Shown: piece after piece, positions 8,738 through 17,624 of the stretch
Numbering within the stretch: the first letter of the stretch is position 1
How the letters are laid out: every line of letters begins with the position of its first letter
Source of the DNA: Streptosporangiales bacterium
GTDB taxonomy: Bacteria; Actinomycetota; Actinomycetes; Streptosporangiales; WHST01
Length of the DNA: 61,996 bases
Assembly: GCA_009379825.1 (NCBI GenBank)
Contig: WHTA01000028.1
Location: 1 to 61,996, forward strand
Direction: 5' to 3'
Program-made: the position numbers and the translations under genes
Notes under the pieces: generated by a model
Database searches by the model: none
What the model was told of the DNA's origin: nothing
The model's input: only the letters and a program-made list of their open reading frames with translations

Positions 8738-9873
8738 CCACGTACGACGTCATCGTCGTCGGGGTAGGGGGAATGGGCAGCGCCGCCGCCTACCAGCTCG
8801 CCAGCCGCGGGCAGCGCGTGCTCGGCATCGAGCGGTTCACCGCGGGCCACGACCAGGGCTCCAGCCACGGCCGCTCGCGCGTGATCCGGCAGGCGTACCA
8901 CGAGCACCCGGCGTACGTGCCGCTCGTGCTGCGCGCGTACGAGCTGTGGGAGCGCGCCGGCCGCGACACGGACCGCGAGCTGCTCACCGTCACCGGCGGA
9001 GTGATGGTCTCCGGCCCGGACGCCGGCCTGGTCACCGGCGCGCAGACCAGCGCACGGCAGTGGGGCCTGCCGTACGAGATCCTCGACCACACCGAGGTGC
9101 ACGACAGGTTCCCCACCCTCACCCCGCGCGAGCACGAGGTCGGGCTGTACGAGCCTGGCACCGGGTTCGTCCGCCCGGAGGAGTCGGTGCTCGCGCACAG
9201 CGAGCTGGCCGCCGCTGCCGGCGCCGACCTGCACTACGAGGAGCAGGTGACCGGCTGGACGGCGACGGACAGCTCGGTGGAGGTCACCACAACGTCCGGT
9301 CGCTACACCGCCGGCCGGCTGGTCTTCTGCGGCGGCGCGTGGTCGCCGCAGCTGCTCGCCGAGCTGCAGCTGCCGATGGTCGTCGAACGCCAGGTGATGC
9401 ACTGGTTCGACCCGATCGGCGGCGCCGAGCAGTTCCGGCCCGACCGGCACCCGATCTACCTGTGGGGCGAGACCGACGACGAGCTCGTCTACGGCTTCCC
9501 CGCCCACGACGGCGAGTCGACGGTGAAGGTCGCGTACTACCGCCGGCCGCACACGTGCACGCCGGACGACGTGGACCGCACGGTGAGCCAGGCGGAGGCC
9601 GACGAGATCCGCGCGTTCCTGCGGCCGCGGATCTCCGCGCTCGGCGGCAGGCACGTCACGGCGAAGACCTGCCTGTACACGATGACGCCCGATCACCACT
9701 TCGTCATCGGGCACCACCCCGGCCGGCCGAACGTGGTCGTCGCCTGCGGGTTCTCCGGGCACGGCTTCAAGTTCGTCCCGCTCGTCGGCGAGGTGCTCGC
9801 CGACCTGGCCATCGAGGGCGGCACCCGGCACGACATCGCCCTCTTCGACCCGACCAGGTTCGCCGCCGAGTAG
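8734..9873 (+). CDS. monomeric sarcosine oxidase / N-methyl-L-tryptophan oxidase family flavoenzyme
   Basis: A 379-residue FAD oxidase of the MSOX/SolA family, which oxidises N-methyl amino acids to the amine plus formaldehyde and H2O2. The Rossmann dinucleotide motif VGVGGMGSAAA is at residues 9-19. 'SSHGRSRVIRQAYH' follows, as in MSOX. Cys313 in KTCLYTMTPDHHF matches the cysteine that binds FAD covalently. The C-terminal 'GFSGHGFKFVP' is also diagnostic. Translation is coupled to the MFS gene by a 4-bp overlap. Sarcosine, N-methyltryptophan and pipecolate are all possible substrates; specificity cannot be read from the sequence. Confidence 0.9.
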   Translation: MTTYDVIVVGVGGMGSAAAYQLASRGQRVLGIERFTAGHDQGSSHGRSRVIRQAYHEHPAYVPLVLRAYELWERAGRDTDRELLTVTGGVMVSGPDAGLVTGAQTSARQWGLPYEILDHTEVHDRFPTLTPREHEVGLYEPGTGFVRPEESVLAHSELAAAAGADLHYEEQVTGWTATDSSVEVTTTSGRYTAGRLVFCGGAWSPQLLAELQLPMVVERQVMHWFDPIGGAEQFRPDRHPIYLWGETDDELVYGFPAHDGESTVKVAYYRRPHTCTPDDVDRTVSQAEADEIRAFLRPRISALGGRHVTAKTCLYTMTPDHHFVIGHHPGRPNVVVACGFSGHGFKFVPLVGEVLADLAIEGGTRHDIALFDPTRFAAE

Positions 9874-9883
9874 GTTCTGCGGT

Positions 9884-10129
9884 ATGACGCTCACCGAATG
9901 GTCCCGCCTGTGCAGTGCCGAGCTCGGTCTCGACGTCGCGTTGGAGAAGGCGGACGTGGACCGGATCCTGGACCTCGCGCGCGACGCGGCGCACCAGGTG
10001 GCACGGCCGGCAGCTCCGCTGACCACGTTCCTCCTCGGCGTCGCCGTCGGGCGGGGCGCCGACCCGGCCGACGCCGCCGCGCGGCTCACGGAGCTCGCGA
10101 ACAGTCAGGAGACCACGGACGAATCGTGA
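9884..10129 (+). CDS. DUF6457 family small protein
   Basis: An 81-residue protein of the DUF6457 type. Features are 'DRILDLARDAAHQVARPAAP' and 'LTTFLLGVAVGRG', typical of a family often found beside molybdenum-cofactor genes. No moco gene is nearby. It lies 10 bp after the oxidase gene on the same strand and may be co-transcribed. The function is unknown. Confidence 0.8.
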   Translation: MTLTEWSRLCSAELGLDVALEKADVDRILDLARDAAHQVARPAAPLTTFLLGVAVGRGADPADAAARLTELANSQETTDES

Positions 10130-10249
10130 CGCAGCGCTCACTGCGCTACGTCGTGCTTACCGTTCAACACTGGCCGTGGTAGGAGTGCCTGGCTAACCTC
10201 CCCGACATCGGGACGCCGGCAGGGGACCGGCGCCCGAGAGGTGCCTACC

Positions 10250-11104
10250 ATGTTCACGAAGATCCTGCTCGCCATCGCGAGCGCGGCCGCGCTGTCCGGC
10301 GCGGCCGTACTGTTCGGGGCGTCGCCGGCCCAGGCGGCGCTGAGCTTCCAACTACCGTTCCCGTGCGGACAGACCTGGCACGGCAACTCGAGCGCAAGCA
10401 GCGCACACACCGGCAAGGAAGTCGACTTCAACCGCGGCTCGTCGGCGACGGCGGACCGCGGCGACACCGTGGTGGCCGGGGCGTCCGGCGTCGTACGTAC
10501 CGCCGCGCACCAGGGCAGCGCGAACGACTACGGCAACCTGGTGAAGGTCGAGCACTCCGGCGGCTACTTCACCTACTACGCCCACCTGAACGCCATCGCC
10601 GTGAAGGCCGGCGAGCGGGGTGCTGCGGGGTCAGGCGATCGGCCAGGTCGGCAACACCAGCCGGCCGGGCAGCGGCATCTCGCCGCACCTGCACTACGAG
10701 GTGCGCGAGGGCAGCAGCGGCTACCCGGGCAACCTGCGCAGGGCCGCGTTCGACGGCCGGACGTTCGGCTACCCGGATGCCGACGTGACGTCGAAGAACT
10801 GCGCCAACAGCTATGACACCAGGGAGGTGTGCGGCAGCGGTTACCACGTCATCGACTCGGTGGCGCTCGGCGCGAAGGGCGTCGCCGAGCTGGCAACTGC
10901 ACGGTGACGCTGAAGTTCGCCGCCGTCGGCACGTCGACGCCGACGGCGGCGTACCTGGAGCCTGCCGGTGGTTCACGGGCCACCGACTCCGGTGGCTTCG
11001 GCTACTACGCCGGACCCGTGCGCAAGGTCGCACCCGGGTGTGTCCGTTGGGGCGGCGCCACCGGCGGGGAGAGGTACGACAGCCCCGCGGAGCACTGCGG
11101 CTGA
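10250..11104 (+). pseudogene. secreted M23 peptidase, two one-base frameshifts
   Basis: A secreted LytM/M23-type zinc peptidase of about 284 residues, expected to cleave peptidoglycan cross-bridges. It has a signal peptide (MFTKILLAIASAAAL... ending AQA). The HxxxxD-type first metal site is HTGKEVDF and the second is HLHYE. A C-terminal extension of about 90 residues has paired cysteines. The frame breaks near 10617, where GGGG must be GGG to give ERVLRGQAIGQVGNTSRPGSG (partial). It breaks again near 10892, where GG must be GGG to give AELGNCTVTLK. Both repairs are single-G changes, so sequencing error is likely and the gene may be intact in the cell. The ATG at 10250 follows GAGAGGTG. Confidence 0.8.
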
Positions 11105-11111
11105 CGCCCGG

Positions 11112-12308
11112 TCAACCGTGGCGGCCGGACTCGTAGATCTCGATCGCGTGCGCCAACCAGCCGACCGACCGGGCGACGACGAAGACCGCCTCACCGCTGC
11201 CGTACGGCATGTCGTGCACGAAGCACAACGCGCCGAGGGCGAACTCGACGTTCGGTGGCAGCTGCCGCCGTTCCTCGACCAACCGGGTGACGGCCTGCAC
11301 GATCTGCAGCCGGTCGTCATCCGGTGGGTCCTCGGCCAGCATGTCGAGCAGCAGGGTCGCCCGGCCGTCGGTGCGTTCGTACCGCGGCTGGCCGAACCCG
11401 GAGATCCGGTCGCCACGGAGCAGCCGCTCGCCGATGACCCTGCGTACCGAGGCGGGCGAGTCGATGTCGCCGAGCCACGCCTGCACCGCGAGCGACGAGC
11501 CGCCGTCGAGCAGCAGGCCGCTCGCCACGCTCATCCCGGCGAGCACCACGGAGTACGGGTCGGCCGCCATCGACGCGGCGGCCCGGACGGCGCGGGTGGA
11601 CGGCGCCACCGCATGGTCGCCGAGCATGACGAGCGCCGCGGACAACAGGGCGATGTCGCGCTCGCGGGCCGGCCGTGCGGACAGCCGCGACCACAGCCGC
11701 GCGGCGACCGCGCCCGACAGCGGTTGGGACGAGAGTTCGGGCAGCGACTCGACGAGCGCAGGCACCAGTGACCGCCCCACCGAGCGTACCGAAGGCGCGG
11801 AGAGGTCGTACCTGAACGAGTCCGCCGCACCGAGCATTGCCGTGGTCACCTTGAGCCGGTCGAGCGGCAGGCTCGACTCGGGCACTGCGGCACGGACGGC
11901 CTCGACCGTCGCCTTGGCCTGCTCGTTGAGCGCCCACGGCACGTCCGGCTCGATGCCCGACTCCCACAGCAGCTCGGCCACCGCCTCGAACGAGTGCGTG
12001 GCTGCCAGCTCCGCCGCCTCGTGCTCGCGGTAGTAGAGCCGGTCCTCGACGATGCTCGCGACCCTCGTCGTCTCGCCTGGCGTGGTCGGCTCGAGCGGTT
12101 CTGCCCTCGCGCCACTGCGCACGGCCATCGCGTCGACCTCGGCGCGGGACAGCCAGCTCCTGCGGTCCCCAGCCAGCCGCTTGCTGCGCAGCAGGCCGCG
12201 GCTGACGTACGCGTACACGGTGCTCGGCTTGACGCCAAGCTGTTCTGCCGCCTCGGCGACCGAGATCAGGCCCGGATCTGCACCACCGCCCGTTACGGCT
12301 GCCGGCAC
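11112..12308 (-). CDS. HTH-citrate synthase fusion, probably a catalytically inactive regulator
   Basis: About 398 residues. Residues 15-60 are a MerR/excisionase-type helix-turn-helix (ISVAEAAEQLGVKPSTVYAY). The rest is a complete citrate-synthase fold ending 'VARSVGWLAHAIE'. Catalytic positions are altered. The first His is kept (GDHAVAPST, His232), but the LHGG histidine is Asp (LLDGG, Asp268). The GFGHRVY motif is GFGQPRY (Gln307 for His), and the PNVDF aspartate is Glu (PNVEF, Glu355). Losing two essential residues argues against citrate synthesis and for a ligand-sensing domain on a DNA-binding protein. It is divergent from a catabolic operon starting at 12361, which it may control. The start is uncertain: GTG 12308 or 12311, both very close to GGGGAGG. 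Confidence 0.85.
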   Translation of the reverse strand: MPAAVTGGGADPGLISVAEAAEQLGVKPSTVYAYVSRGLLRSKRLAGDRRSWLSRAEVDAMAVRSGARAEPLEPTTPGETTRVASIVEDRLYYREHEAAELAATHSFEAVAELLWESGIEPDVPWALNEQAKATVEAVRAAVPESSLPLDRLKVTTAMLGAADSFRYDLSAPSVRSVGRSLVPALVESLPELSSQPLSGAVAARLWSRLSARPARERDIALLSAALVMLGDHAVAPSTRAVRAAASMAADPYSVVLAGMSVASGLLLDGGSSLAVQAWLGDIDSPASVRRVIGERLLRGDRISGFGQPRYERTDGRATLLLDMLAEDPPDDDRLQIVQAVTRLVEERRQLPPNVEFALGALCFVHDMPYGSGEAVFVVARSVGWLAHAIEIYESGRHG

Positions 12309-12360
12309 CACGCCTCCCCGGGGACTCCAGACGACGTTGACAAGCAAGGGAGCTTGCCGA
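12309..12360. promoter_or_regulatory. 52-bp divergent control region
   Basis: This is the only DNA between the HTH-citrate synthase gene and the rightward catabolic operon, so both promoters must overlap coding sequence or each other. It contains TTGACA at 12337-12342, inside TTG-N5-CAA (12337-12347), a short dyad that could be an operator. TTGACA is too close to the GTG at 12361 to act as a normal -35 box for that gene. GGGAG at 12348-12352 is the ribosome site for 12361. Confidence 0.4.
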
Positions 12361-13449
12361 GTGCGTACCCATCGGATCGCCGTCATCCGTGGTGACGGCA
12401 TCGGCCCCGAGCTGGTGGACGCAGCACTCCAGGTGCTCGACGCGGTCGCCGCAGGCCGCGACTACCGGTTCGAGACGGTCGAGGTGGACGCCGGCGCGGA
12501 CACCTACCGCCGCACGGGTACCGCCTGTTCCGCCGAGGCGCTCGAGCTGATCAGGTCGGACGTCGCCGGCACGCTGAAGGGGCCGGTCGGGCTACCGCAG
12601 GTACGCCGGCCGGACGGCACGGAAGCCGGGCTGCTCGGCGGCATCCTCCGCACCGGCCTCGACGCGTACGCGAACGTGCGGCCGGTCCGCCTGCTCGCCG
12701 GCACCACCTCCAGCCTCGGCCTGCGCGCCGGCGAGATCGACTACGTGATCGTCAGGGAGAACACCGAGGGTCTCTACGCGTCCCGCGGCAAGGGTGTGGG
12801 CAATGCCTGGGCGATGGCGGACACGTCGATCACCACCAGGGAAGCGACGCTGCGGGTGTGCCGCCGCGCCTTCGAGCTCGCCCACCGCCGCAACAGCGCG
12901 CCGTCCGACGGCACGCGGCGGGTCACCTGCGTGGACAAGAGCAACGTACTGCGCACCTACGCGCTGTTCAGGGACATCTTCCACGAGGTGGCGCAGGAGT
13001 ACCCGGACGTCGAGACCGAGGTGCTCTACGCCGATGCGGCGGCACAGGCGCTGGTGCTGCGGCCGGGCGACTTCGACGTGCTCGTGATGGAGAACTTCCT
13101 CGGCGACATCCTGAGCGACCTCGGCGGCGCGACGATCGGCGGCATCGCGTTCTGCCCGTCGGGCAACATCGGCGACGAGCACGCCTACTTCGAGCCGATC
13201 CACGGCAGCGCACCCGGCGTGGCCGGCCGCGACCTCGCGAACCCGATCGGCCAGGTACTGGCCGCTGGCATGCTGCTCGACCATCTCGGACATCCCGACG
13301 ACGCCCGTCGGGTCACCGCCGCCGTCGAAGCCGCACTCGCGTCCGGCGCCGTGCAGGTCGCCGGCGACGGGACGGTGACCGGCGGCGCAACCGCCGCGGC
13401 AGACGCATTCGTCGCCGCACTACGGAACACACCGGAGGTGTCGTCATGA
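12361..13449 (+). CDS. isocitrate/isopropylmalate dehydrogenase family (beta-hydroxyacid oxidative decarboxylase)
   Basis: A 362-residue NAD(P)-dependent enzyme of the IDH/IPMDH/tartrate dehydrogenase family, which oxidatively decarboxylates a (2R,3S)-3-substituted malate. It shows 'GDGIGPELV', 'VRENTEGLYASRG' with the catalytic Tyr, 'VDKSNVL' with the catalytic Lys, and 'DILSDLGG' with metal-binding Asp. 'EPIHGSAPGVAG' lies in the cofactor loop. The genuine TCA enzyme usually lies elsewhere, and the co-operonic carrier and dehydrogenase suggest a dedicated catabolic role (tartrate- or alkylmalate-like). The GTG start follows GGGAG by eight bases. Its stop overlaps the start of the MFS gene. 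Confidence 0.88.
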   Translation: MRTHRIAVIRGDGIGPELVDAALQVLDAVAAGRDYRFETVEVDAGADTYRRTGTACSAEALELIRSDVAGTLKGPVGLPQVRRPDGTEAGLLGGILRTGLDAYANVRPVRLLAGTTSSLGLRAGEIDYVIVRENTEGLYASRGKGVGNAWAMADTSITTREATLRVCRRAFELAHRRNSAPSDGTRRVTCVDKSNVLRTYALFRDIFHEVAQEYPDVETEVLYADAAAQALVLRPGDFDVLVMENFLGDILSDLGGATIGGIAFCPSGNIGDEHAYFEPIHGSAPGVAGRDLANPIGQVLAAGMLLDHLGHPDDARRVTAAVEAALASGAVQVAGDGTVTGGATAAADAFVAALRNTPEVSS

Positions 13450-14749
13450 CGACGGCCACTGAGTTCACGTTCACCGGACGCAGCAGGCGACGGATCATCG
13501 TCGCCGCGTCGGCCGGCAACTTCGCCGAGTGGTACGACTGGGGCGTCTACGGCGTGGTCGCCACGATCATCGCCACGACGTTCTTCCCCGAGGGCGACCC
13601 CGTCGTCGCGCTGCTGAACACGTACGCGGTCTTCGCGCTCGGCTACCTCTCGCGCCCGTTCGGCGGCGTCGTCTTCGGTTGGATGGCGGACAAGCTCGGC
13701 CGCCGCAGGGCTCTATCGTTCACCATCATCCTGACGTGTGCGGGCACTGCGTCGATGGGAGTGTTGCCGACGTACGCGCAGGCCGGCCTGCTCGCGCCGA
13801 TACTCTTGCTCGTCGGCCGGCTGGCGCAGTCGATGGGCGCGGGCGGCGAGTACGCCAGCGCGATCAGCTTCGTGTTCGAGCACAGCCCGGCCAGCCACAA
13901 GGCGCGCAACGTCGGAATGCTGGTCGCGTCCACGTTCGTCGGCATCATGTCGGGCTCGGTGATGGCGCGCCTGTACTCGTTCGTGCTCGGCGAGGACGCG
14001 TACACCGCGTACGGCTGGCGCTTCCTCTTCCTGTTGGCCGTGCCGCTCGCGGTGTTCGGGTTCTACCTGCGCCGCCGGGTGGAGGAGACACCCGAGTTCG
14101 AGCAGATCGCCGCCGCGCGCCGCGCCGCGAAGCACAAGAAGTCGCCGCTCGTCGAGACACTGCGGTGGCACTGGCCACGGGTCGTCGTGTTCATCGTCTG
14201 CGCTGCGAGCTACGCGCTCATCAGCACGACCATCACGTCGTACCTCACGACGTTCCTCATCAGCGTGGGTCACCTGGGCAACACCGAGGCGTTCAACGTG
14301 ACGATCGTCAGCAACGTGTTCGTCATCGCCGCGGCCCTCGCCACCGGCGTGCTGTGCGACCGGATCGGGCTGCGCAAGACGATGACCATCGCGGGCGTCG
14401 TCGTCGCGGTGCTCGCCGTACCCGGCTTGGCGGTCGCTGCGCAGGGGCTGGTCGGCGGGTTCGTCGGCGGCATGGCGATCGGCGCGTGCAAGGGGCTGCT
14501 CGCACTGCCGGTGCTGCTCGCGGTCAGCCAGCTCTTCCCCGGCGCCATCCGCGTGACCGCGGGAGCGTTGGCGTACAACGTGGTGCAGGCGGTGTTCGGG
14601 GGTACCGGACCGATCGTCGGTGTGTGGCTGAACGACAGCACCGGCGGCCCGGACGGCCTCGGCATCTACCTGGCCGCGCTCGCCGTGGTGACCGCGGTGT
14701 TCTCGTACCTGGCGAGGCGGTGGTTCGAGACCCCGTCGAGGTGCGCTGA
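13446..14749 (+). CDS. MFS transporter of the metabolite:H+ symporter (MHS) type; frameshift in the last codons
   Basis: A 12-TM MHS-type carrier of about 434 residues, resembling carriers for dicarboxylates and other organic acids. It shows 'AASAGNFAEWYDWGVYG' at the first TM, 'FGWMADKLGRRRAL' in loop 2-3 and 'GRLAQSMGAGGEYA'. The annotated frame runs past 14749 deep into the next gene. Near 14733 the run CCCC should be CCCCC. With that base the protein ends ...FETPVEVR at the TGA 14747-14749, which abuts the next ATG. This is a clear homopolymer error or a very recent mutation that leaves the transmembrane part intact. It should import the operon's substrate. Confidence 0.85.
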
Positions 14750-15775
14750 ATGGTCTCGGTCGACGATCTGGAGCAGCTGGCGACGGAGGCACTGCAGGCA
14801 GGCGGGGTGGACCACAACCACGCAGTGCGGACTGCGCATGTGCTCGTGCTCGCCGACCTGTTCGGCATCCACACCCACGGCGTGCAGCGTGTGCCGCAGT
14901 ACCTCGAACGGGTACGCGTCGGCGGCATCGACCCGCAGGCCGACATCACCGTGGAGCGGGTCGCGCCCGCGCTCGCCACCGTGGACGGAGCCGGCGGCCT
15001 TGGACCCGCGGTCGGGTCGTACGCGCTCGAGGTGGCTCTCTCGGCCGCGCGGGACACCGGCGTCGCGGCAGTGTTCGCGCGGGACAGCAACCACTTCGGC
15101 CCGGTGATGCCGTACCTGTCCGACGCCTGCCGGCAGGGTTTCGCCGCGGTGATCGCGAGCAACGCCACCACGACGATCGCACCGTGGGGCGGCCGGGAGG
15201 CGAAGCTCGGCAACAACCCACTGGGGATCGGTGTGCCGAACCCGGCCGGCGACCCCGTGCTGCTCGACATCGCGATGAGCGCCGTCGCACGCGCGAAGAT
15301 CCGCACTGCCGCGAAGGCCGGTGAGCCGATACCGCCAGGCTGGGCGACCGATGCGTCCGGCCGCACGACCACCGACCCGTCCGCCGCGCTCGACGGTCTG
15401 CTGCTTCCGTTCGGCGGCCACCAGGGGTACGGACTCGCGCTCATGGTCGACCTGCTCGCCGGTGTGCTCGCCGGTGCCAGCTTCCTGACCGGCGTGAGCT
15501 CGTGGAACCTGAACCCGGAACGGCCGCAGGACCTCGGCCACGTGTTCCTGGTGGTCGACACGTCGAGGCTGGGTGCCGCCGACGCGTTCAGCGCCCGGAT
15601 GCGGGAGTTTTCCGAGACGCTGCACGCGACGACGCCGATCGACCCCGGCCAGCCGGTGCGGCTGCCCGGCGAGAGCGAGCTCGCCGCGTACCACAGACAG
15701 CTCGCCGAGGGTGTCGACGTCGCGGCGGCCGACCTCGCGGCACTGCAAGTCATCGTGGACGGGAGACACGCATGA
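14750..15775 (+). CDS. Ldh_2-family malate/lactate-type dehydrogenase
   Basis: A 341-residue NAD(P)-dependent 2-hydroxyacid dehydrogenase of the Ldh_2 family (malate/L-lactate, ureidoglycolate and diketogulonate dehydrogenases). These have an all-own fold unrelated to Rossmann LDH. Typical motifs are 'LADLFGIHTHGVQRVPQYL' (with the catalytic His), 'SNHFGPVMPYL', 'ASNATTTIAPWGG', 'KLGNNPLGIGVP' and 'GGHQGYGLALMVDLL'. It abuts the MFS gene and overlaps the amidohydrolase by four bases. It probably oxidises the hydroxyacid produced by that hydrolase. Confidence 0.9.
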   Translation: MVSVDDLEQLATEALQAGGVDHNHAVRTAHVLVLADLFGIHTHGVQRVPQYLERVRVGGIDPQADITVERVAPALATVDGAGGLGPAVGSYALEVALSAARDTGVAAVFARDSNHFGPVMPYLSDACRQGFAAVIASNATTTIAPWGGREAKLGNNPLGIGVPNPAGDPVLLDIAMSAVARAKIRTAAKAGEPIPPGWATDASGRTTTDPSAALDGLLLPFGGHQGYGLALMVDLLAGVLAGASFLTGVSSWNLNPERPQDLGHVFLVVDTSRLGAADAFSARMREFSETLHATTPIDPGQPVRLPGESELAAYHRQLAEGVDVAAADLAALQVIVDGRHA

Positions 15776-16632
15776 CACCGTTGCCGGCCGGTTCCTGTGA
15801 CTGCCACACGCACGTGTTCGGCCCGTACGCCAGGTTCCCGCTGTCGGACGACCGCCCGTACACACCGCACGAGGCGTCCATCGAGCAGCTGAACCAGTTG
15901 CACCGCGGGCTCGGCATCGACCGCGTGGTGCTCATCCAGCCCAGCCCGTACGGCGTCGACAACTCCTGCCTCGTCGACGCGTTGCACCAGCTGGGCCATC
16001 GGGCGCGTGGCGTCGCCGTGGTGGACCCCGACGCCTCCGCGAGCGAGCTCGCACAGCTGCACGCCGCCGGCGTGCGCGGCACCAGGGTCAACGTCGCCAG
16101 CTACGGGCTGGCCGAGCACCGCGCGTTCGTCGACCGGCTGCGGCGGACGGCCGTCGCCGTGGAACCGTACGGCTGGCACGTCCAGCTCTACGCGCAGCTC
16201 GCCGAGCTGGTGGCTCTCGCCGACGAGCTCGCGACACTCCCGGTCCCCGTCGTGTTCGACCACTTCGCCATGGCACGCGCCGAGAAGGGTGTGGCACAGC
16301 AGGGGCTCGACACCGTGCTCGACCTGGTCGCGTCCGGCCGCGCGTACGTCAAGCTGTCCGCTCCGCACCGGATGTCGACGGCGCCCGACCACGCGGACGC
16401 CGCGCCGTTGGCACGTGCGTTCCTCGACGCCGACCCGGCGCGCGTGCTGTGGGGCACCGACTGGCCGCACACCGACGCCGACGGCCGCAGCCCGGAGAAC
16501 CGGCTGATCCCGCGGCCGTTCAGGAACGAGGACGACACCGCCGCAATACGACGGCTGACCGGCTGGGTCAGGTCCGCCGAGGAACTACACCAGGTGCTCG
16601 CCGACAACCCCCGCCGCCTCTACGGGTTCTGA
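15772..16632 (+). CDS. amidohydrolase, 2-pyrone-4,6-dicarboxylate hydrolase (LigI)-like
   Basis: A 286-residue TIM-barrel amidohydrolase of the cog3618 type (LigI, lactonases). It opens with CDCHTHVFGP, the HxH metal/anion site, followed by 'FPLSDDRPYTP' as in LigI-like enzymes. It ends its barrel with the catalytic Asp in LWGTDWPHT. 'VVFDHFAMARA' supplies a further conserved His. Family members hydrolyse lactones such as pyrone dicarboxylate. It overlaps the preceding dehydrogenase by 4 bp and is the last gene of the operon. A lactone or cyclic ester entering via the MFS carrier is a reasonable inference. Confidence 0.88.
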   Translation: MTPLPAGSCDCHTHVFGPYARFPLSDDRPYTPHEASIEQLNQLHRGLGIDRVVLIQPSPYGVDNSCLVDALHQLGHRARGVAVVDPDASASELAQLHAAGVRGTRVNVASYGLAEHRAFVDRLRRTAVAVEPYGWHVQLYAQLAELVALADELATLPVPVVFDHFAMARAEKGVAQQGLDTVLDLVASGRAYVKLSAPHRMSTAPDHADAAPLARAFLDADPARVLWGTDWPHTDADGRSPENRLIPRPFRNEDDTAAIRRLTGWVRSAEELHQVLADNPRRLYGF

Positions 16633-16667
16633 GGCCCGCGACCCACTGCATCACCTATGGCCGACCT

Positions 16668-17624
16668 ATGACGGCCGCCGCCAGCATTGGCACCGTGGTG
16701 GAGAAGCGGCATCCGGTCGGCGGGATCATCTTCGGCGGGCTCGGTCTCGTGATCCTGCTGGCGAGTTTCGGCTCGCCATGGTCACGGGCCACCGATTTCG
16801 CCTCCACCGGCGTCGGCACGTCCGACCTCGACGTGCTCGACCTCGGCGCCGGCTCGGTGCTCTACCTGTTCGGCGTGGCGTTGCTCGTGGTGCTCGCCGT
16901 CGGCACCATCGCCGCCAGGGGCACTGCCAGGCTCGTCCTCGGCGTCAACGGCCTCGTCAGTGCGCTCGTGCCCACCATCGGACTGGTCCTCACCATGGGC
17001 GCGATCCGACAGGCCAACATCGCCGCGCTCGAGGACGCGAAGGCCGACGACGGCGGCGCGGACCTGGCGCTCGGGCTGCAGGCGGGCCCAATCCTCGCCG
17101 GTGTCGCCGTCTTCGCGCTGGCGCTCGCGGTCAGCAGGTTCACCTGGCCGAACCGTCCGACGGTCTGCTACTCGACCGGCGTCGCCGTCGCGGCGGTCGT
17201 GATGCTCACGATCCCGTGGGCGGGTCGCCGGGCGGTGCTCGCCGACCAGGTGGTCGTGCGCGACTACTGGTTCTTCTCGCTCGGCACCCTGGGCTACGTC
17301 GCGGCGGCAACCGTCGCCGTGCTCGTCGCGCTCGCGATACTCAGTGCGGTGCTCGCCGGCACGGCATGGTGGCCGGCGGCGCCGATGCCGTTGGTCGCGA
17401 TCGCCACTGCCGTGCCGGCCATCGTGCTCGAAGTCTCCGGCCTGCAGCCCGACGCATCGCTCGCGAGCGCCGAGGACGTCAACTCGGTCCTCAACACCGG
17501 CGTGCCCGGCGTGTGGTCACTGGTGTGCCTGGTGTCGTCCATCTGCGCCCTGGCCATGTCGGCCAGGGAGTACGTGAAGGCACGCAGGCGGGCGGCGAAC
17601 ACGGTCACCGTGCCTGCGCTGTGA
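16668..17624 (+). CDS. multi-pass membrane protein of unknown function
   Basis: A 318-residue integral membrane protein with about eight hydrophobic segments. These include 'IIFGGLGLVILLASFGSPW', 'LYLFGVALLVVLAVGTIAA', 'LVSALVPTIGLVLTMGAI', 'ILAGVAVFALALAVS', a pair around residues 160-230 and a final 'VWSLVCLVSSICALAM'. Between TM1 and TM2 is a short extracellular loop with 'ATDFASTGVGTSDLD'. I recognise no domain. It begins 35 bp after the amidohydrolase with no strong ribosome site, so it may or may not belong to that operon. Confidence 0.75.
   Translation: MTAAASIGTVVEKRHPVGGIIFGGLGLVILLASFGSPWSRATDFASTGVGTSDLDVLDLGAGSVLYLFGVALLVVLAVGTIAARGTARLVLGVNGLVSALVPTIGLVLTMGAIRQANIAALEDAKADDGGADLALGLQAGPILAGVAVFALALAVSRFTWPNRPTVCYSTGVAVAAVVMLTIPWAGRRAVLADQVVVRDYWFFSLGTLGYVAAATVAVLVALAILSAVLAGTAWWPAAPMPLVAIATAVPAIVLEVSGLQPDASLASAEDVNSVLNTGVPGVWSLVCLVSSICALAMSAREYVKARRRAANTVTVPAL

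Follow-up and report, generated by a model that had tools for sequence, protein, structure and literature searches.

A helix-turn-helix joined to a citrate-synthase fold as a predicted regulator of a divergent dehydrogenase operon in a Streptosporangiales bacterium

Introduction

Regulators of the MocR/GabR type consist of a helix-turn-helix (HTH) fused to a complete aminotransferase fold that serves as the sensor, and they are often encoded divergently from the metabolic genes that they control. Here we describe a gene in which an HTH is joined to the fold of citrate synthase (CS), located on contig WHTA01000028.1 of a Streptosporangiales bacterium, the 61,996 nt of which are referred to below as the window.

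Catalysis by the citrate synthase of M. sedula relies on His214, His253 and Asp307; Arg262, Arg332 and, from the other subunit, Arg351 bind citrate (PMC6386500). A cell-cycle role that does not need catalysis has been reported for CitA of C. crescentus (PMC7083601). In S. coelicolor, the citA3 and citA4 genes (SCO5831/SCO5832), both recorded as putative citrate synthases, have a common intergenic region, to which the response regulator MtrA binds at the site TTGACTTAACTGTCCA (PMC12323332). A search of the open-access literature for HTH-citrate synthases found none described as a regulator.

Results

The HTH-citrate-synthase (HTH-CS) gene was confirmed as a real gene on the minus strand of the window, running from 12308 to 11112 and encoding 398 aa (Table 1). 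Read from its first ATG, the open reading frame would cover 11112-12401 and encode 429 aa; the start is most likely the GTG at 12308, since GGGGAGG stands in front of it, and the residue numbers of an earlier sequence-only reading of the window agree with this choice. The N-terminal HTH scores barely above the Pfam cut-offs with both PF00376 (MerR; 29.3 bits against a curated cut-off of 28.2) and PF12728 (HTH_17; 27.1 bits), and it exceeds that of the excisionase model TIGR01764 (29.7 against 28.8). The citrate-synthase domain lies far above the PF00285 cut-off of 27 and aligns with positions 9-351 of a profile that is 357 positions long. The AlphaFold2 model was built from 37 aligned family members, and Foldseek returned methylcitrate and citrate synthases (3hwk, 6abx and others) as its top matches in the PDB. 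Pfam, TIGRFAM, AlphaFold2 and Foldseek agree on the architecture first proposed from the letters, an N-terminal HTH followed by a near-full citrate-synthase fold. The 52-bp divergent gap had also been placed correctly, the end point of 12361 assigned to the gene being the start of the dehydrogenase. Comparison with L148 gave a dN of 0.35 and a dS of 0.88 (Nei-Gojobori), a ratio of about 0.4 that indicates purifying selection; on this ratio and a GC3 of 0.91 we judge that the gene is maintained under selection.

Table 1. Coordinates of the HTH-CS gene, its altered residues and the divergent operon within the window.
Feature	Position	Strand	Basis or remark
HTH-CS regulator gene (predicted), 398 aa	11112-12308	-	GTG start, GGGGAGG ribosome-binding site, TGA stop; AlphaFold2 mean pLDDT 91.3, pTM 0.82
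MerR/excisionase-type winged HTH, N-terminal, residues 14-65	12114-12269	-	Pfam MerR and HTH_17, TIGR01764, secondary structure of the model
Citrate-synthase fold, residues 80-395	11124-12071	-	PF00285, 154 bits; Foldseek against PDB, TM-score 0.66-0.76
LHGG position: catalytic His replaced by Leu267 (11508-11510), with Asp268 (11505-11507) next to it	11505-11510	-	alignment of relatives
GFGH His replaced by Gln307	11388-11390	-	equivalent to His253 of the M. sedula enzyme
PNVDF Asp replaced by Glu355	11244-11246	-	equivalent to Asp307 of the M. sedula enzyme
Shortened C-terminus, chain stops before the IRP..YxG tail with the partner-subunit citrate-binding Arg	11112-11153	-	
Divergent intergenic region, 52 bp	12309-12360		both starts checked
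ACGTTGACAA, half of the family palindrome or a -35 box (TTGACA)	12334-12343	+	PWM rank 7 in the 62-kb window
Isocitrate/isopropylmalate (IDH)-type dehydrogenase, divergent	12361-13449	+	PF00180, 280 bits; under every NCBIfam equivalog cut-off
Metabolite:H+ symporter (MHS), MFS, TcuC/ProP-like	13446-14749	+	frame open to 15107, C-terminal end uncertain
Ldh_2-family malate/lactate-type dehydrogenase	14750-15775	+	PF02615, 378 bits
Amidohydrolase, TIM-barrel lactonase-like	15772-16632	+	PF04909, 152 bits; weak match to 4-sulfomuconolactone hydrolase

The active-site residues of the M. sedula enzyme were mapped onto the window protein through an alignment that included the 6abx chain. The first active-site His is retained as H232, and Arg316 and Arg380 are the retained equivalents of Arg262 and Arg332. 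Two of the three catalytic substitutions that the sequence-only reading had named are upheld by this alignment, namely the change of the GFGHRVY His to Gln307, for which all clade relatives also have Gln, and that of the PNVDF Asp to Glu355. The third had been assigned to the wrong residue: the His of LHGG (His214 in M. sedula) was held to have become Asp268, but alignment to the solved structures alone slips by one residue at this point, and only the relatives fix the position. The motif reads GLLLDGGSSLA in the window protein, GLLLGGGSSLA in seven orthologues with the same operon and GLLHGGGSSLA in L147, so that the His is absent and Leu267 stands in its place, while a change of His to Asp268 is ruled out; Asp268 is an additional Gly-to-Asp change adjoining the lost His. 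The change of Asp to Glu is weak evidence when taken alone, since Glu is usual at the catalytic Asp position among CS-family rows without an HTH match (102 of 129, mostly ordinary CS genes and many of them redundant). These rows, with Glu within LHTNVEFYAG, include partner CS genes of the Streptomyces type (L007, L096-L116 and others) and, from the window's own genome, L002; of the two further CS genes that this genome has, one shows Glu. Beyond these residues, the IRP..YxG tail, whose Arg351 binds the citrate of the other subunit in M. sedula, is absent, a loss that had been overlooked. The claim that only the first His survives thus holds for the residues named but not for the whole substrate site, in which two of the three citrate-binding Arg residues are kept and the third has gone with the tail. 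The protein is, we predict, very probably not a citrate synthase.

A scan of genome contigs with a single protein as query returned nothing; relatives were recovered by a scan with a three-member alignment (A1). In 390 genomes from the family to which S. soli belongs we found nine clade members, S. soli among them, which together with the window protein, L147 and L128 make a clade of 12. Both L147 and L128 come from Nonomuraea cypriaca (G471), which carries a third HTH-CS with an ordinary partner resembling homocitrate synthase (HCS-like). GFGQ, NxEF and the missing C-terminal tail are common to all 12 members, the 11 relatives being from other actinobacteria, and Leu replaces the LHGG His in eight, the window protein included. 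Exactly those eight diverge from an operon of dehydrogenase, MHS symporter, Ldh_2 and amidohydrolase genes, and the substitution pattern and the operon therefore travel together; the window's IDH-type dehydrogenase is 71-73% identical to its counterparts in the seven orthologous operons, which have the same gene order. The other four members keep the LHGG His: L128, L262 and L264 face a dehydrogenase and have a CitMHS gene in the locus, and L147 faces Ldh_2, followed by TctC and TctA. The partner in the clade is always a dehydrogenase, accompanied by a tricarboxylate-type transporter (MHS in eight loci, CitMHS in three, TctC/TctA in one). Because these four still have the LHGG His, the loss of the catalytic residues was stepwise, and some residual chemistry may remain at this position. 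The changes in the window protein are not due to chance, since the same ones are fixed in relatives of other genera.

No NCBIfam equivalog cut-off was reached when the substrate of the IDH-type dehydrogenase was sought, and we therefore claim only a citrate-like polycarboxylate as the substrate class. The MHS symporter frame (13446-15107, plus strand) contains no stop ahead of the Ldh_2 start at 14750, the TGA at 14747-14749 being in another frame; the 3' end of this gene may carry a small indel or a mistake in the assembly.

The same data bear on whether the gene is simply a decaying pseudogene of an HTH-citrate synthase, a reading to which the additional Gly-to-Asp268 change, the short 52-bp intergenic region and the degenerate operator-like site described below would lend themselves. 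Its frame is intact, its fold is confidently modelled and identical substitutions and operon occur in seven other genomes; decay is very improbable and was rejected on the selection figures and the conservation in orthologues.

At an E-value of 1e-30 or lower, HTH-CS matches were found in 60 of 395 genomes in a sample of the class and in 112 of 347 of the order, and they also occur in some metagenome-assembled genomes labelled as non-actinobacterial (Dormibacteraeota). Neighbouring partners were assigned by tblastn. For most HTH-CS genes the divergent partner is either a citrate synthase gene, as in Streptomyces, Actinoplanes and others, or an HCS-like DRE-TIM gene, as in Nonomuraea and others; this arrangement is usual but not universal, and the window gene, facing an IDH-type dehydrogenase, departs from it. 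The DRE-TIM partner best resembles the homocitrate synthase NifV, at 232 bits far under the cut-off of 462.9. This gene ('HFLDVTNRDGVQTARTGLSKFGKTMVN') is conserved beside HTH-CS in many Streptosporangiales and their relatives, for example at L131:7976-9235 (minus strand), L117-L124, L132-L136, L142-L144 and others, and may encode either a Re-citrate synthase or a homocitrate synthase. Upstream of the Streptomyces HTH-CS genes in loci L007 and L009 lies TTGATTCGACTGTCCA, which resembles the MtrA site TTGACTTAACTGTCCA, and from this likeness the locus is probably the same as citA3/citA4 of S. coelicolor.

Retention of the catalytic residues follows the partner. His, His and Asp are all kept in 56 of 58 non-redundant HTH-CS proteins with a CS or HCS-like partner; among the 13 lacking such a partner, at least one is lost in nine and all are intact in four (Fisher p 4.7e-7, a figure that overstates independence because the rows are related). 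The seven orthologues share both the substitutions and the divergent neighbours with the window protein; most HTH-CS keep the residues and have another partner. The case that the sequence-only reading had set against itself, homologues with intact residues and measured citrate synthase activity, is seen in its first half only: intact homologues do exist, elsewhere on the tree, and no measured activity was found for them.

In a tree of 76 rows the HTH-CS proteins form one clade apart from ordinary citrate synthases (support 100, starred). The window clade (support 99, starred) joins L098, L138 and L139 in a seven-row clade (support 88, unstarred), all members of which have lost residues. Over the whole tree the losses require six changes, at least three of them forced by starred branches. 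The HTH-CS fusion predates the loss of catalysis, and the window protein is therefore not an enzyme that has newly gained an HTH but a long-standing fusion whose chemistry was lost. The neighbours of L138 include the tricarballylate dehydrogenase TcuA (461.8 bits, cut-off 369), an MFS gene and a gene that matches PrpD weakly, and L139 (9405-12473), which lacks the catalytic His and Asp, lies beside large and small subunits of the homoaconitase/LeuCD type; no link of the tricarballylate or homoaconitase type was seen among the neighbours of L098. The L138 locus (9687-17299) encodes an HTH-CS with Lys and Gly for the catalytic His and Asp, and also contains a gene that reads like a CoA transferase. 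Further HTH-CS proteins with a changed GFGH His have Met (L031) or Gly (L069, L072, L076 and L077).

A family in which the catalytic residues are usually all kept raises the prospect of a bifunctional trigger enzyme, one that binds DNA and at the same time carries out an altered reaction, with an acyl-CoA or a polycarboxylate as substrate. The LHGG His kept in four clade members and the frequency of Glu for Asp among CS-family genes fit this idea, but the window protein and its seven orthologues have lost both His residues and the Arg tail together, and what was lost is catalytic and citrate-binding in the solved M. sedula enzyme (PMC6386500). We regard such an enzyme as quite improbable for the window protein.

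Upstream of the HTH-CS genes we found a palindrome, TCAAyrTTGA, present as an exact copy in 60 of 72 non-redundant cases and in none of the shuffles. Within 772 kb of loci, 65 of the 69 exact copies fall at most 350 nt upstream of an HTH-CS gene, and a third half-site, TCAAy, follows 3-8 nt further on in 48 of the 60 (0.5 expected). It was absent from 28 CS loci without HTH-CS (111 kb). Since it occurs alike with CS, HCS-like and dehydrogenase partners, the palindrome follows the HTH-CS gene and not the enzyme. In the orthologous operons it lies 57-77 nt ahead of the GDGIGPEL codons of the dehydrogenase and, in those operons that were read, directly downstream of a TTGACA-17-TACGGT-like promoter, the elements of which were read by eye; this is the position of a repressor, and suggests repression.

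The window is the exception within its clade, since the other 11 members all have the palindrome and the window has a half-site only. Its palindrome core has two mismatches in 10 bp with one half conserved, and ACGTTGACAA is the seventh-best PWM site in 62 kb, a score reached by about 0.5% of equally long stretches. As it contains TTGACA, it may equally be a -35 box, the two being indistinguishable here. No exact TCAAyrTTGA occurs anywhere in the window's genome; the recognition-helix region of the window protein (KPSTVYAYVSRG) resembles that of its relatives. Exact copies number six in the S. soli genome (one at the dehydrogenase operon) and nine in that of Nonomuraea, where three adjoin HTH-CS genes. 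Those of the remaining copies that were inspected show no consistent function, and a wider regulon is not claimed.

The palindrome also bears on the suggestion that the protein modifies one of the cell's two ordinary citrate synthases, or joins it as a non-catalytic subunit, and has an HTH that is not used on DNA. The two subunits of dimeric citrate synthase share an active site, the usual neighbour of an HTH-CS gene is a CS, and C. crescentus CitA sets a precedent for a catalysis-independent role (PMC7083601). The window clade, however, does not adjoin a CS, and the conserved palindrome marks HTH-CS genes even where there is no CS neighbour, which makes this the least probable of the readings considered.

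Discussion

The central proposal of the sequence-only reading, a non-catalytic citrate-synthase fold acting as regulator of the divergent dehydrogenase operon, is supported: the substitutions and the operon are conserved together in seven orthologues, and the palindrome marks HTH-CS genes but not other CS genes. Taken as a whole, the reading of the window protein as a non-catalytic one-component regulator of this operon is in our view probable; that the protein regulates the operon at all is highly probable, and that it does so as a repressor rather than an activator is moderately so. Its ligand is perhaps, on balance, a di- or tricarboxylate, a guess made from the neighbouring genes and the conserved Arg and His residues.

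What the sequences show is the two-domain architecture, the lost residues, the conservation of these losses together with the operon, and the palindrome of the relatives; from this we infer DNA binding, autoregulation, repression, a polycarboxylate ligand and a switch by domain closure. In this model a MerR/excisionase-type winged HTH stands at the N-terminus of a dimeric citrate-synthase fold in which citrate is no longer made, and the targets of the protein would be its own gene and the divergent operon of IDH-type dehydrogenase, MHS symporter, Ldh_2 and amidohydrolase genes, most likely held repressed. The dimer would bind the inverted half-sites TCAAy/rTTGA, which follow directly on the promoter of the dehydrogenase. 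A di- or tricarboxylate resembling citrate, which the operon takes up or produces, would enter the old substrate cleft and be held by the two remaining Arg residues and the first His, upon which the domain closure typical of citrate synthases would shift the pair of HTH domains and release the DNA.

It might be argued that the fold serves for dimerisation alone, as a scaffold without any sensing, control being exerted through the level of the protein itself or by another factor; with the catalytic residues and the Arg tail gone, the pocket may indeed be dead. We consider this improbable, as two substrate Arg residues, the first His and the GFG loop are conserved in the clade, more than a scaffold requires, and the partners are consistently dehydrogenases with polycarboxylate-type transporters.

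The wider setting of the window protein may, by a slight preponderance, be a large and unrecognised family of actinobacterial transcription factors that use the citrate-synthase fold as sensor. The intact majority would be citrate- or oxaloacetate-responsive regulators of their partner CS or HCS-like gene, perhaps as trigger enzymes, and side lineages including that of the window would have lost the chemistry and been re-assigned to the uptake and oxidation of other polycarboxylates with the same operator kept. If true, citrate synthase, a textbook enzyme, would be the source of a transcription-factor sensor domain, with the stages preserved in living relatives: the full catalytic set beside a CS, partial loss, and full loss where the operon has been re-assigned. 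Many genes that bear only the annotation "citrate synthase", probably including one of S. coelicolor citA3 and citA4, may then regulate carbon metabolism. With the predicted operator the regulator reading can be tested directly, and the sensor could become a biosensor for citrate-like acids.

Compared with described systems, the window protein resembles the type II citrate and 2-methylcitrate synthases (M. sedula CS, 6abx; M. tuberculosis methylcitrate synthase, 3hwk) in its fold over nearly the whole length and in the first His, the equivalents of Arg262 and Arg332 and the GFG loop, but it lacks both catalytic His residues and the Arg tail, has Glu for Asp and bears an extra HTH at its N-terminus. 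With the actinobacterial HTH-CS proteins that face a CS, by inference one of citA3/citA4 among them, it shares the two domains, the divergent layout and membership of one tree family, and its clade relatives share the palindrome, of which the window has at most a half-site; those proteins keep His, His, Asp and the Arg tail, whereas the window clade has lost residues and faces a dehydrogenase and transport operon. Its HTH lies above the Pfam and TIGRFAM cut-offs and is thus like that of MerR/excisionase-type regulators, in which, however, a coiled coil and effector domain follow in place of a citrate-synthase fold, and the operator of MerR lies in a promoter spacer of 19-20 bp, whereas the palindromes of the orthologues stand downstream of the -10 box and not in a long spacer. 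The MocR/GabR regulators are alike in joining an HTH to an enzyme fold as sensor, and differ in both the fold and the type of HTH.
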